Origin: Ignavibacteriota bacterium
GTDB taxonomy: Bacteria; Bacteroidota; Ignavibacteria; UBA10030
DNA: 43,261 nucleotides
Assembly (NCBI GenBank): GCA_003162695.1
Contig: PMML01000078.1
Location: 1 to 43,261 of the forward strand
Direction of reading: 5' to 3'
Positions within the stretch are counted from its first letter, which is position 1, and every line of letters starts with the position of its first letter. The notes beneath the pieces were generated by a model, which was not told the DNA's origin, made no database searches, and was given only the letters and a program-made list of their open reading frames with translations. The position numbers were made by a program, and so were the translations under genes. Shown here piece after piece: positions 33,627-39,542 of this stretch.

Positions 33627-33654
33627 TTGACAATCTCTCAGGAAAAGTTATATT
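33627..33654 (+). promoter_or_regulatory. Strong sigma70-like promoter of the metY-cysK leader
   Basis: TTGACA at 33627-33632 and TATATT at 33649-33654 with 16 bp spacing. A transcript would start near 33661, giving a leader of about 540 bases before metY. This leader contains the poly-Cys ORF, the riboswitch-like RNA and the terminator listed next. Confidence 0.75.
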
Positions 33655-33691
33655 AAAAGAGAGCAGTACCTAAGATAAAAAATTGAAAACG

Positions 33692-33835
33692 ATGAAGAAT
33701 ACATTATCCTTGATGCAGACATCAAAGCCGTTCGCCGGAATGGCGGAGAGTTGTTGCTGTCGCTGTTGTTGTTGTCGGACGCACGTTCGCGCAACGATGT
33801 CGGATAATGGTTGTTCATCGGCCTCCTTATTGTAA
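33692..33835 (+). CDS. Poly-cysteine leader peptide upstream of metY-cysK
   Basis: A 47-codon ORF from ATG 33692 to TAA 33833. Codons 21-28 (33752-33775) spell CCCRCCCC, within SCCCRCCCCR; an eighth Cys is at codon 41. Cys is rare in proteins, so such a run directly upstream of a cysteine/methionine synthesis operon fits a leader peptide whose translation slows when Cys-tRNA is scarce. Poly-Cys upstream ORFs of this kind have been reported as cysteine-responsive attenuators in mycobacteria. The start lies about 30 bases into the predicted transcript; no ribosome site is obvious. The TGT/TGC run could also be a chance simple repeat. Its stop codon abuts the next RNA element. Confidence 0.65.
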   Translation: MKNTLSLMQTSKPFAGMAESCCCRCCCCRTHVRATMSDNGCSSASLL

Positions 33836-33970
33836 TATTTTCTCAAAACAAGCTTTTTTACAGGTCGACGGAGCAAAGCCCGATGCGGCCATAACCAGCC
33901 CTTTCTCCAATGGTGCTGATCATTATCCTCAATCGCCGTGCGATTGAGGGAATAACGAGATGAGGAAAAT
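33836..33970 (+). promoter_or_regulatory. Riboswitch-like RNA, SAM-I clan candidate
   Basis: A multi-helix RNA closed by P1: ATTTTCTCA (33837-33845) pairs with TGAGGAAAAT (33961-33970) with one bulge. P2-like arm: GGTC...CGG, then CCCG...GGCC (33863-33890). P3: ACCA/TGGT at 33894-33897 and 33911-33914, continuing as TGGTGCTGAT, which resembles the conserved GGUGCuAAu of SAM-I. P4: a perfect 9-bp hairpin CCTCAATCG/CGATTGAGG at 33927-33949. The order, the GCCCGATG and AACCA...TGGTGC strings and the metY-cysK context suggest a SAM sensor. The canonical kink-turn (GAUGA) and GGCAACC are not matched exactly, so it would be a variant. GAGG of the P1 3' strand can pair with CCTC of the terminator's left arm, the usual off-switch layout. 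Confidence 0.5.
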
Positions 33971-33973
33971 TGA

Positions 33974-34015
33974 AAACCTCTTCCGGAAAATTCCCGGAAG
34001 AGGTTTTTCGTTTTT
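33974..34015 (+). terminator. Intrinsic terminator (attenuator) in the metY-cysK leader
   Basis: A 13-bp perfect stem: AAACCTCTTCCGG at 33974-33986 and CCGGAAGAGGTTT at 33994-34006, 7-base loop, followed by TTTCGTTTTT. It stands 190 bases before the metY start, after a promoter and a leader, so it can only make sense as a regulated terminator for metY-cysK or as the end of a short RNA. The remaining 188 bases to metY hold no other feature. Confidence 0.9.
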
Positions 34016-34065: not shown

Positions 34066-35517
<1,452 letters not shown>

Positions 35518-35584: not shown

Positions 35585-36502
35585 ATGGCATTAGCAAAAA
35601 ATATTCTGGAAACCATCGGCCGTACGCCGCATGTGCGCGTGAACCGGCTTTTTGGAGACAAGGAAGTATGGATAAAACTCGAACGATCGAATCCGGGCGG
35701 AAGCATTAAAGATCGTATTGCGCTGGCAATGATAGAAGATGCGGAGCGGCGCGGAATTCTGAACAAAGATTCCGTCATCATCGAACCTACATCGGGCAAT
35801 ACAGGAATAGGTCTGGCTTTTGTTGCGGCAGTAAAAGGATATAGAATCATCATCGTTTTACCGGAATCGTTTTCAATAGAGCGGCGGCGCTTGATCAAAG
35901 CATACGGAGCGGAGCTTGAACTGACCCCCCGCGAAAAAGGAATGAAAGGCGCAATCGAACGTGCGACAGAATTGGCGGCTTTAACACCGAATTCCTGGAT
36001 CCCGCAGCAATTTGAAAATTCAGCCAATATCGAGATACACAAAAAAACGACGGCAAAAGAAATTCTTGAAGATTTCCCGCAGGGTATTGATTTCATCATT
36101 ACTGGCGTCGGTACCGGCGGGCATATTACAGCCGTAGCAGAAGAGCTGAAAAAGGTATGGAAGAATCTTAAAGTGTTTGCTGTGGAGCCTGCGCTCTCGC
36201 CTGTTATCAGCGGGGGAAAACCCGGGCCGCATCCGATTCAGGGTATCGGTGCAGGTTTTATACCGAAAAACCTTCATGTCGAAGCGATCGACGGTGTGAT
36301 TCAGGTTACAAAAGAAGAAGCGTATGAGTACGCGCTGCGTACGGCGCGGGAAGAAGGAATTCTTGTCGGAGTCTCATCCGGCGCAGCTTTAGCGGCAGTT
36401 GCCAAGAAACTTCCCGATCTTCGTCCGGGCGGCAGAATTCTAACATTTAATTACGATACCGGCGAACGGTATCTCTCCGTAGACGGACTTTTCCCGGCAT
36501 AA
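35585..36502 (+). CDS. cysK: Cysteine synthase (O-acetylserine sulfhydrylase)
   Basis: PLP enzyme that makes cysteine from O-acetylserine and sulfide. ATG 35585 has AAAGGAG seven bases upstream; it gives 305 residues. PLP Lys is in [14 protein letters not shown] (about 41), substrate loop [32 protein letters not shown], and [11 protein letters not shown] near the end. The tail [13 protein letters not shown] is typical of CysK. It follows metY by 67 bases, so cysteine and homocysteine synthesis from sulfide are made together under one leader. Confidence 0.96.
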
Positions 36503-36591: not shown

Positions 36592-37062
36592 ATGAGCGCA
36601 TCGTCGAATTCGGTCGATCTGAATGCATTAAAATTCAACCAGCTTTCAATTATAGCGCTGACACTTCTCGGTTATATTTTGGATGTCCGGCTGCTGCCTG
36701 GATTCGTTGCTGCATTGATGGTTCTCGGCGGCCTTTTTCCGCAGGCGGCTCTCTTTAAAATACTCTACCGGCGAGCGGCCGTTCCGTTAAACATTTTGAA
36801 GCCGGAAATTTCCGAAGAATCGTCCGCGCCGCATAACTTTGCGCAGCTTTTAGGGGGAGTTGTTCTGACGGCCGGGACCGCTTTATTGTTTTTTGGTTCG
36901 GCGGCAGCCGGCTGGACGCTTGCATGGATCGTTATTCTGCTGGCAGCGGTGAATGTCGGTTTCGGTTTTTGCGCGGGCTGCTTTGTGTACTTTCAGCTTG
37001 CCCGGTTGAATGTCCCCGGATTTCGTTCGGCTCAATCCGGCCAGGTGGGAATATCATCATGA
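36592..37062 (+). CDS. DUF4395 membrane protein
   Basis: A 156-residue protein with about four membrane segments (residues about 18-50 and 85-140). The end of the last segments has GFGFCAGCFVYFQLARL, a CxxC at a membrane edge that is usual for DUF4395. Function unknown; these genes often stand beside thioredoxin-like or sulfur-transfer genes. GGGAA lies 7 bases upstream of ATG 36592. It overlaps the next gene by four bases (ATGA), so the two proteins probably act together in thiol chemistry. Confidence 0.85.
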   Translation: MSASSNSVDLNALKFNQLSIIALTLLGYILDVRLLPGFVAALMVLGGLFPQAALFKILYRRAAVPLNILKPEISEESSAPHNFAQLLGGVVLTAGTALLFFGSAAAGWTLAWIVILLAAVNVGFGFCAGCFVYFQLARLNVPGFRSAQSGQVGISS

Positions 37063-37466
37063 TCGAAAGACTTGTTCTATCGTTCTTTTTAATAGCTGCA
37101 TTGTCGGCAGCGGCGAAAATCATCCTTTCCTTTTTAGCATGGCGAATGCGCAGAACATTCCTTGTTCACAGGACTTCCGTCCATCATTCCCAGCCGGTCC
37201 TTCTTTATTTTTGGTCGGACCGGTGCTCTCAATGCAAAACGCAGGAACGGGAAATATCCGCCGCACAAAATATTCTTCGTCAATTCGGAAAACAGTTTGA
37301 TATCCGGAAAATCAATGCGCTCGAAGATCGAAAAACTGCGGAATTATACCGCGTTATGACCGTACCGACCGTCATTTTACTGGACGAGGACGAACAGCCG
37401 GTTGCCGTCCATCCCGGATTCACCCGGGCAAAGACGATCTCGGAACAATATCTGCGAAGTGCCTGA
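37059..37466 (+). CDS. Membrane-anchored thioredoxin-like protein
   Basis: A 135-residue protein: N-terminal membrane anchor (LVLSFFLIAALSAAAKIILSFLAW), then a thioredoxin fold with the active site WSDRCSQCKTQE (CSQC in place of CGPC) and the cis-Pro in VMTVPTVILLDED. The anchor suggests the thioredoxin part lies at the membrane surface, possibly periplasmic. ATG 37059 overlaps the DUF4395 stop. Its partner is probably DUF4395, and the dsbD gene downstream could supply electrons; this is inferred from position. Confidence 0.88.
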   Translation: MIERLVLSFFLIAALSAAAKIILSFLAWRMRRTFLVHRTSVHHSQPVLLYFWSDRCSQCKTQEREISAAQNILRQFGKQFDIRKINALEDRKTAELYRVMTVPTVILLDEDEQPVAVHPGFTRAKTISEQYLRSA

Positions 37467-37626
37467 CGATCCTGGAAAAGAGTAAGCTGTTTTTCCGAAG
37501 GCATCCGGAACCTCTGAAACAATCGGAATCATAATAATTTTCATAATCCTCCATCCAATACCGTTATCATGCGAAAAATAGTGCAGCCGTAAAGCGGGAC
37601 ATTTACTTAATTTACGGTATAGAGAC

Positions 37627-37655
37627 TTGTTCATCATAAAGAGATATGGTATTTT
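37627..37655 (+). promoter_or_regulatory. Probable promoter of dsbD
   Basis: TTGTTC at 37627-37632, 17 bp, TATTTT at 37650-37655, about 30 bases before the dsbD ATG. The rest of the 219-bp gap behind the thioredoxin-like gene shows nothing else. Confidence 0.45.
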
Positions 37656-37685
37656 GAAGAGTTGAGTTTATAAAATGACGGAGTC

Positions 37686-39542
37686 ATGATGAATAAAGTT
37701 TTTCGGTCAGCCGTGTTATTCTGGATTATTTTCGGATCCGGTATATTCGTACATGCCCAGTCCAGTCTGGTTTCATTAAGCCTGAATAAGCAAAAGTGGA
37801 CGGTCAATGCTGGAGCGAATTTTACAGTCGCTCTCCATGTAAAAATCGAACACGGATGGCATATCAACTCGAACAAACCGAACGATGAATTTCTTATTCC
37901 GGCAGTACTGGCTTCCGGCAATACTTCGTTTCCTGTGGCGGGCATCCGTTTCCCTGTACCGAAAGAAAAAAAACTCGGCATCTCCGAAAAACCGGTTTCC
38001 GTTTTTGAAGACGAGATCAATATGCAGGCCACGATTGCCGTAAAAAAAACGACGACCGGCGGCACGTATTCCATTCCGCTTCGATTTAGTTATCAGGGGT
38101 GCAACGACCGGATGTGTGCGGCCCCGGCGAGCGAAACAATCGAACTTACCCTGGAGGTCAAATCCGGTGCAGACACATCGGCTGAAACTCCTGAAGACTT
38201 TGCGCAAAAGAAAACGGGGGATATAAAGAACGCCGCTTCGATATCGACGCCGTCAAAGATGATGCAAGAGCCGAAAATTTTGCAATCTCAACAATCGCAG
38301 CCTCTTCCCGTTGAAAAACATGCGGAACAAATTTCAAAGAACGACGCATCGATCGCTTCTACATTGGAAAGAAGCGGATTGATACTGAGTCTGATCTTTG
38401 TCTTTATCGGCGGACTTGCGTTGAACCTGACGCCGTGCGTGTATCCGCTTATTCCGATCACCGTCGGCTATTTCGGCGGACAGGCGGAAGGAAAAACAAG
38501 CCGTTTGTTCCTTCTCGGAATATTATATGTTCTCGGCATGGCGCTGACCTATTCAATCATTGGTGTCGTTACTGCCCTCAGCGGGGCGGTGTTCGGCGCG
38601 CTGCTGCAGCAGCCGGCTGTTCTCATCGGCATCGCTCTGCTGTTCGTTGTGCTGGCATTGAGTCAGTTCGGTGTGTATGAATTTAAGCTTCCGGACTCGT
38701 GGGCTGCTAAAGCCGGCGGGGCAAAGAGCGGCGTCTTCGGCGCTTTTTTTATGGGACTGACCATGGGAATTGTCGCGGCGCCGTGCATCGGTCCCTTTGT
38801 GCTCGGGCTGGTAACGTATGTTGCGGCAAAGGGGGATCCGCTCTACGGATTTTTAATGTTTTTCGTTCTTGCTGTCGGACTTGGATTTCCTTATTTGATC
38901 CTTGCGCTTTTTTCCGGAAAGATCAAGAACCTTCCACGTGCAGGGGACTGGATGGTCGGTGTAAAACATATTTTCGGATTTTTACTGACGGGCATGGCCA
39001 TCTATTTTATCGGTCCGCTCCTTCCGGCGGCGGCTGTGCATTATGCGCTTCCGTCCTTTGGCATTCTGGCTGCGTTTATCCTGCTGTTCTTCGATTCGAC
39101 TGCCGCGGGGGTCAAAGGTTTTAGAATATTTAAAATAGCATTCTCCGTGATGGTAATCGTCGTTTCTGTCTATGCATTGATTCCGCAAAAAACTGTTTCG
39201 CCGGTGTGGCGAAGTTTCAACGAAGAGGCGTATGAAGCGTCGATCAGGAATAACGAACGTATGGTTGTAGATTTCTATGCGGATTGGTGCATACCGTGCA
39301 AGGAACTCGATGCGCAGACTTTTTCAGATCCGCTGGTCCGGCAGGAACTGATGCGTTTTTCAAGCTACAAGGTAGACATGACGCAGTCGGCCTCGCCGTC
39401 GACGGAACGACTGCGCACCAGGTTTAAAATTAGAGGCATGCCGACCGTTCTAGTTATAAATGCGCGCGGAGAAGAAGCAGAACGCCTCACCGGCTTCGCG
39501 GGGCCGGAACGGTTTCTGGAAATATTAAAGAAAGCAGAGTAG
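37686..39542 (+). CDS. dsbD: Thiol:disulfide interchange protein DsbD
   Basis: Transfers electrons from cytoplasmic thioredoxin to periplasmic thiol proteins. Its 618 residues have all three modules: signal peptide (1-24); N-terminal domain (about 25-165) with the pair in YQGCNDRMCAAP; an eight-segment membrane domain (about 225-500) with the redox Cys in LNLTPCVYPLIP and VAAPCIGPFVLG; and a C-terminal thioredoxin domain (about 510-618) with YADWCIPCKELD and cis-Pro in GMPTVLVI. The Ser/Lys/Gln-rich linker at about 165-225 is less conserved. GGAG lies close upstream of ATG 37686. Confidence 0.96.
   Translation: MMNKVFRSAVLFWIIFGSGIFVHAQSSLVSLSLNKQKWTVNAGANFTVALHVKIEHGWHINSNKPNDEFLIPAVLASGNTSFPVAGIRFPVPKEKKLGISEKPVSVFEDEINMQATIAVKKTTTGGTYSIPLRFSYQGCNDRMCAAPASETIELTLEVKSGADTSAETPEDFAQKKTGDIKNAASISTPSKMMQEPKILQSQQSQPLPVEKHAEQISKNDASIASTLERSGLILSLIFVFIGGLALNLTPCVYPLIPITVGYFGGQAEGKTSRLFLLGILYVLGMALTYSIIGVVTALSGAVFGALLQQPAVLIGIALLFVVLALSQFGVYEFKLPDSWAAKAGGAKSGVFGAFFMGLTMGIVAAPCIGPFVLGLVTYVAAKGDPLYGFLMFFVLAVGLGFPYLILALFSGKIKNLPRAGDWMVGVKHIFGFLLTGMAIYFIGPLLPAAAVHYALPSFGILAAFILLFFDSTAAGVKGFRIFKIAFSVMVIVVSVYALIPQKTVSPVWRSFNEEAYEASIRNNERMVVDFYADWCIPCKELDAQTFSDPLVRQELMRFSSYKVDMTQSASPSTERLRTRFKIRGMPTVLVINARGEEAERLTGFAGPERFLEILKKAE

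Follow-up and report, generated by a model that had tools for sequence, protein, structure and literature searches.

In the genome of an Ignavibacteriota bacterium, a short open reading frame (ORF) with a run of cysteine codons precedes the genes metY and cysK. This raises the question whether the ORF encodes a leader peptide by which cysteine is sensed, and how the position of a ribosome on it could be passed on to the genes downstream. The window analysed is a stretch of 43,261 nucleotides (assembly GCA_003162695.1, contig PMML01000078.1). Amino acid operons of the trp and his type are controlled by ribosome-mediated attenuators. The leader studied here is likely a cysteine-responsive, ribosome-mediated transcription attenuator of metY-cysK. 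All evidence for this is sequence-based, without expression or translation data, and the confidence in each single pairing is lower than that in cysteine attenuation overall. The leader and its operon comprise the following parts.

33627-33654, + strand: sigma-70-type promoter of the leader (TTGACA, 16 nt, TATATT), with 11 of 12 consensus positions matched
33692-33835, + strand: poly-Cys leader ORF with ATG start, 47 codons and TAA stop; counterparts in genomes G007, G024, G030 and G026
33752-33775, + strand: regulatory Cys codons CCCRCCCC, with Cys at codons 21-23 and 25-28 and Arg at codon 24
33780-33820, + strand: ORF 3' element, conserved as RNA rather than protein and predicted to pair with the P4 region under a Cys-codon stall
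33972-34008, + strand: intrinsic terminator of 15 pairs, conserved in all five leaders
34204-35517, + strand: metY, O-acetylhomoserine/O-acetylserine sulfhydrylase, first gene of the operon (TIGR01326, 688 bits versus a cut-off of 495; PF01053)
35585-36502, + strand: cysK, cysteine synthase A (TIGR01139, 399 bits versus a cut-off of 351)
36592-37062, + strand: gene for a DUF4395 (PF14340) membrane protein, following cysK in the probable operon and assigned by a profile match

The peptide encoded at 33692-33835 is MKNTLSLMQTSKPFAGMAESCCCRCCCCRTHVRATMSDNGCSSASLL, with an in-frame TTG at 33683 as an alternative start. The -10 box ends at 33654, 37 nt separate it from the ATG, and the terminator is located 136 nt past the ORF stop and about 195 nt ahead of metY. 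Three criteria for an attenuator are fulfilled by this arrangement: a short ORF with a run of regulatory codons lies between promoter and terminator and is kept in five genomes, the operon makes the amino acid of these codons (cysK and metY), and the intrinsic terminator is opposed in predicted folds by a mutually exclusive antiterminator, GATGAGG:CCTCTTC. The original prediction of a 47-codon ORF with CCCRCCCC at codons 21-28 upstream of metY-cysK was thus confirmed by the sequence and by profile models, as were its TTGACA-16-TATATT promoter and its strong terminator; its main claim, a cysteine-sensing leader peptide, is supported as likely by the kept Cys run and a predicted stall-dependent fold. 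Like the trp and his attenuators, the leader combines a promoter directly upstream, a short ORF with codons for the product amino acid, and exclusive terminator and antiterminator structures; unlike them, it would sense cysteine, and an additional P4/P1 layer derived from a SAM-I riboswitch lies between ORF and terminator. Downstream of cysK, genes for the DUF4395 protein, a thioredoxin-like protein and a DsbD-like protein (36592-39542) form a group of thiol-related genes that may share the attenuator, and a DUF4395 counterpart is also present 3' of cysK in G007 and G030.

To find counterparts of the leader, metY genes were searched for across the family, and 98 genomes of the order were screened by pattern matching. 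The same leader was identified ahead of a metY gene in G007, G024, G026 and G030, all belonging to one other genus, so that five leaders from two genera are available. In the alignment of related leaders, which had been proposed as a check of the original prediction, the Cys run (CCCCCCSC, CCRCCCSC, CCCRCCCRC and CCCCCC in the four relatives) and the reading frame were kept, and the N-terminal codons had diverged. The peptides are MINSN...RCCRCCCSCLSQLHATMLDNGNSSACSL, MKNSN...GCCCCCCSCLLQLHATTLDNGNSSACSL, MMKNT...DCCCCCCSQLRATTLDLGNSST and MNINY...GCCCRCCCRCFLQLHATILDNGNSSACSQ. For the 3' part of the ORF, 24 non-synonymous versus 3 synonymous codon differences were counted over all pairwise comparisons, and this part is therefore held as RNA. 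TTGACA and TATAcT-like elements are found at the equivalent place in the four related leaders. The order metY-cysK is retained in G007, G024 and G030; the contig of G026 ends within a metY-like gene which is 56% identical to metY of the window. In this last genome (L131/L157) the same poly-Cys leader thus precedes a more distant metY-like gene and the P2-P3 part is absent from it; a movement of the leader between metY paralogues is one possibility. No Shine-Dalgarno sequence was found close to the ATG of the window (33692), which is a weak point of the case, and translation of the ORF is inferred; in G030, AAGGAG is located 5 nt ahead of an in-frame upstream ATG. The leader peptide gave no protein family match in a profile search.

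The CCCRCCCC codon pattern occurs only once in the whole 3.38-Mb genome. Genome-wide poly-Cys pattern matches in the relatives were mostly TGY repeats read as other codons on coding strands and were rejected, G030 providing the sole true counterpart there. For a wider comparison, 57 metY leaders outside cyanobacteria were collected, mostly from Bacteroidota, with four other records also left out. A short ORF with a poly-Cys run precedes metY in 18 of these 57, versus 0.1 expected from dinucleotide shuffles; none was found on the antisense strand, nor in any of 19 cyanobacterial metY leaders. Because the same leader is present in four other genomes of the family and poly-Cys ORFs are this frequent in metY leaders, the leader ORF is real and not a product of chance. 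Nearly all of the 18 ORFs directly follow a SAM-I aptamer recognised by Rfam, the ATG mostly being located 7-14 nt past the aptamer end. Exceptions are L061 and L072, in which the ORF is farther from the aptamer, and L046, which has no SAM-I match.

A relation to SAM-I riboswitches was also identified in the leader of the window itself, in the segment between ORF and terminator. This segment and the elements of the proposed switch are located as follows.

33849-33968, + strand: decayed SAM-I (S-box) aptamer region with P2-like, degenerate P3-like, P4-like and 3' P1-like segments
33824-33831, + strand: predicted 5' arm of a P1-like anti-antiterminator, TCCTTATT, pairing with GATGAGGA at 33959-33966
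33837-33845: predicted alternative 5' arm of the P1-like anti-antiterminator
33927-33949, + strand: P4-like hairpin CCTCAATCGC-CGT-GCGATTGAGG, the stem of which is found in all five leaders
33959-33965, + strand: GATGAGG switch strand, identical in all five leaders, with two alternative pairings: in P1, which lets the terminator form, or with the 5' arm of the terminator (antiterminator)
33977-33983, + strand: terminator 5' arm CCTCTTC, antiterminator partner of GATGAGG

Rfam does not recognise the segment. A scan of the window revealed no family at the gathering level, and matches at low threshold covered only the terminator, its antisense and the stretch after it; for RF00162, no match was obtained at E<=5 in the window or at E<=0.5 in the leaders of the relatives. 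With a covariance model built from 12 SAM-I aptamers of the family itself (R1), the segment after the ORF was matched in G007 (E=7e-5), G030 (E=1.1e-4) and G024 (E=0.0014), and only weakly in the window (E=0.78). In a plain alignment to the 12 aptamers, 33849-33968 scored better than 500 of 500 shuffles and was the top-ranked among 1429 window segments. Of 58 invariant SAM-I columns, 40 are kept in the window, GGTGCT included, and one is deleted; a P2-like stem is also retained, and changes affect the invariant positions TAGCAACC and J1/2. In the relatives, 27-30 of the 58 columns are kept and 13-20 are deleted, mainly in P3, which is missing from G007, G024 and G030 and degenerate in the window; from G026 the whole P2-P3 part is missing. 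A four-way junction of P1-P4 with intact P3, as defines SAM-I, is thus not fulfilled, and the criterion of common ancestry with SAM-I leaders is fulfilled, with a weak covariance score for the window itself. The region between ORF and terminator is a decayed SAM-I riboswitch; its ancestry, unlike its present function, is shown. With RF00162 it shares the layout of P1, P4 and terminator, the GGTGCT and GATGAG-type segments and metY as target; it differs by the lost or degenerate P3, the missing Rfam match and the position of the ORF 5' of the aptamer remnant.

Rfam SAM-I riboswitches precede the second metY copy in G000, G007, G024, G030 and G026 and the other metY genes of the family. As read from the sequences, the second metY operon also contains a MetA-like gene, with an aspartokinase-type gene between in G007 and G026. 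In the genome of the window, this second copy (G000:C16; L142, L152) lies behind an intact SAM-I riboswitch and is followed by a MetA-like gene. A second operon of this kind might represent a natural split of methionine and cysteine control.

The proposed mechanism, in which the direction of the response is inferred, is as follows. With ample Cys-tRNA, the ribosome would run through to the stop codon, and the ORF 3' element would re-pair locally, the Cys codons included. The P4 hairpin and the P1-like stem would then form, GATGAGG would be sequestered, and the terminator would end transcription. With scarce Cys-tRNA, the ribosome would stall on the Cys codons and leave the ORF 3' element free to capture the P4 region as P4 is transcribed. 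P1 would thereby be blocked, the antiterminator of GATGAGG and CCTCTTC would form, and metY-cysK would be transcribed. P1, P4, the switch strand and the terminator would be inherited from a SAM-I riboswitch in which P3 has been lost or is disappearing, and control would accordingly have passed from SAM to the ribosome.

The complementarities on which this mechanism rests are present in the leaders. The five-leader alignment contains 14 conserved stems of at least 6 pairs, versus 0.3 in column permutations; covariation rests on five sequences only, several other alignment stems covary as much, and single counts are not decisive. Part of the Cys-codon run can pair with the ORF 3' element in a 9-column stem across the five leaders, with one exception. 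In a ribosome-position scan, a ribosome was modelled on each codon, with the RNA ending just past P4, and the pairs between ORF element and P4 were counted. For the window, 11-19 pairs were obtained on codons 25-28, versus at most 5.4 elsewhere; for G030, up to 25 on the Cys run versus about 11 away from it; and for G026, up to 25 versus about 9, with 15-17 pairs also on the two codons just before the run. The helix is thus strongest with the A-site on Cys codons in these three leaders. Shuffled ORF 3' parts were as strong as the real one in 0 of 150 cases for the window, 6 of 150 for G030 and 5 of 150 for G026. The same test was unsupportive in G007 (15 of 150) and G024 (95 of 150); no helix displacing P4 was predicted for G024, and a weak one for G007. 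In both, the antiterminator is favoured by a stalled ribosome relative to one near the stop, although Cys codons are not the only positions with this effect.

The predicted stalled structure carries the antiterminator and is the minimum-energy state in G030 and G026. For the window with a stalled ribosome, the state with helix and antiterminator is nearly isoenergetic (-58.9 versus -59.5, a difference of 0.6 kcal/mol), with an estimated barrier of 24.9 kcal/mol. Once the P1 strand of the window is complete, P1 is at least as stable as its competitor at equilibrium, and the model therefore needs co-transcriptional trapping. When the entire leader through to the 5' arm of the terminator was folded at equilibrium, no switch appeared by itself in the window or in G026; trapping was invoked because the switch appears in these two once folding stops just after P4. 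The folding kinetics are thus inferred. A further point against the model is that a ribosome sitting at the stop codon would itself block P1.

Among the alternatives, the leader could still be a SAM riboswitch, a divergent SAM-I variant in which the poly-Cys ORF plays no part or merely a small modifying one. In favour of this are the 40 of 58 invariant columns kept in the window, GGTGCT included, the P2-like stem, and metY as a usual SAM-I target. Against it stand the absence of an RF00162 match at the thresholds given above, the intact SAM-I before the other metY copy, and the loss of P3, which helps to form the SAM pocket, in three relatives and of P2-P3 in G026, with the poly-Cys ORF kept in all five. 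In the absence of SAM-binding data, this explanation is considered unlikely. A second possibility is a leader with two inputs, in which one terminator answers both to a ribosome translating the poly-Cys ORF and to an aptamer that still binds SAM, though more weakly. A degenerate P3-like region remains in the window and is absent in the relatives, and combined signals are plausible since in many other Bacteroidota metY is preceded by both an intact SAM-I aptamer and a poly-Cys ORF. However, the altered TAGCAACC and J1/2 positions speak against SAM binding in the window, and the leaders of genus g8 without P3 cannot work in this way; again without SAM-binding data, two inputs appear improbable. 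Thirdly, the ORF might act by translation coupling or Rho-dependent termination and not by the intrinsic terminator, as terminators are absent from the Cys-run leaders of Actinobacteria, for which Rho has been proposed (PMC1262725), and mycobacterial poly-Cys leaders are cited as translation attenuators (PMC13236596). This is not likely here, given the strong terminator, the competing switch strand, the conserved complementarity of ORF and P4, and a metY start about 370 nt past the ORF stop with its own ribosome-binding site GAAAGG. A functional small Cys-rich protein, metal-binding or a precursor peptide, would agree with the encoded Cys-rich peptide and its conserved frame and is very unlikely, as the N-terminus is not conserved, the C-terminal part is conserved as RNA rather than protein, no family match exists, and the ORF always lies in a metY leader ahead of a terminator.

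For the preferred reading, a cysteine attenuator built on a SAM-I remnant, precedents exist for single parts. The original prediction had named mycobacteria as the source of known poly-Cys ORFs, which is incomplete: Cys-run leaders were also predicted in Actinobacteria other than mycobacteria (PMC1262725), and for cysS of Rhodobacterales an upstream uORF with tandem Cys codons and an intrinsic terminator has been described (uORFC-8-2 motif, PMC8632094). Overlooked by it were the SAM-I remnant between ORF and terminator and the recurrent Cys-rich ORF with SAM-I in other Bacteroidota metY leaders. Mycobacterial poly-Cys leader ORFs are reported by Canestrari et al. 2020, in a title calling them leaderless (cited in PMC13236596 and PMC9094748). 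The present ORF does not match the leaderless type, with the -10 box ending at 33654 and the ORF starting at 33692; the transcription start is inferred and has not been mapped. In Actinobacteria, too, cysteine genes are preceded by a short ORF containing a run of Cys codons, but that run is near the stop and no conserved terminator follows, whereas here the run lies about 20 codons ahead of the stop and the leader has an intrinsic terminator. The uORFC-8-2 motif is similar in its Cys codons, in a stem containing them and in a U run consistent with an intrinsic terminator; it differs in having two Cys codons, cysteinyl-tRNA synthetase as target, no described SAM-I ancestry and a restriction to alphaproteobacteria, whereas the leader of the window precedes metY-cysK in another phylum. 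Leader ORFs joined with a metabolite- or ion-sensing leader are represented by mgtA, where a proline-codon ORF lies within a leader responding to Mg2+ (PMC3641672); with proline, Mg2+ and an unrelated RNA, it is a precedent mainly for the tandem of SAM-I and poly-Cys ORF in Bacteroidota. A SAM-II leader with two start codons is a further case of riboswitch plus ORF (PMC9373788), and attenuation leaders have been noted generally in flavobacteria (PMC9723704). No description of poly-Cys ORFs joined with SAM riboswitches was found in the literature searched, most subscription papers being outside its scope.

At the sequence level, the leader may be an example of the conversion of a metabolite riboswitch to an attenuator under ribosome control; the same genome also holds the intact paralogue for reference. 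Attenuation by cysteine codons would be extended to Bacteroidota, by an RNA mechanism that can be tested. In a bolder reading, metY was duplicated, and the SAM-I riboswitch of one copy lost the ligand-binding P3 and kept its expression platform, which an upstream poly-Cys ORF took over; in parallel, a poly-Cys ORF was acquired by other Bacteroidota immediately 3' of an intact SAM-I aptamer, and with its start codon 7-14 nt past P1, translation of the cysteine sensor would be gated by SAM, an AND gate for low SAM and low cysteine. Taken jointly, these steps could as well be wrong as right. The ORF is located 5' of the remnant in the group of the window and 3' of the aptamer in the other Bacteroidota, which makes separate origins of the two designs probable. 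Neither gene callers nor Rfam scans report such ORFs as parts of regulatory elements. A metY leader with two signals, SAM and cysteine, is predicted for genera including the cultured Pontibacter, Pedobacter and Mucilaginibacter.

Leaders of metY with a Cys-rich short ORF just after SAM-I are L015, L028, L030, L033, L036, L037, L047, L050, L052, L065, L069, L075, L079, L080 and L081, and also L271 and L278. These ORFs end in runs such as CMCCCC or CCCCACCC before the stop, followed by metY, and might be read as a double leader for SAM plus cysteine, an inference from their arrangement. The leader peptide of G181, a genome of the same phylum as the window, is almost identical to that of Pedobacter rhizosphaerae L079, from which Bacteroidota was inferred as the phylum of the window. 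A general role of poly-Cys ORFs as companions of SAM-I was rejected: among 110 SAM-I sites across the phylum, they were found in 2 of 51 metY leaders and 1 of 48 others. In that sample, few sites carry the tandem, which is almost limited to metY and occurs in some lineages only. The count of TGYTGYTGYTGY in eight Bacteroidota genomes was uninformative. In L296, a 15-codon ORF, MRRAGMGCCCCCWLA, is located 69-114 nt past a SAM-I aptamer, the first long ORF is not metY, and the arrangement may be due to chance. Related leader peptides end in SCCCCMCA in L047, SCFFCMCA in L032 and SCFSYMCA in L287, and it is possible that in some lineages the Cys run is decaying by single-base changes.
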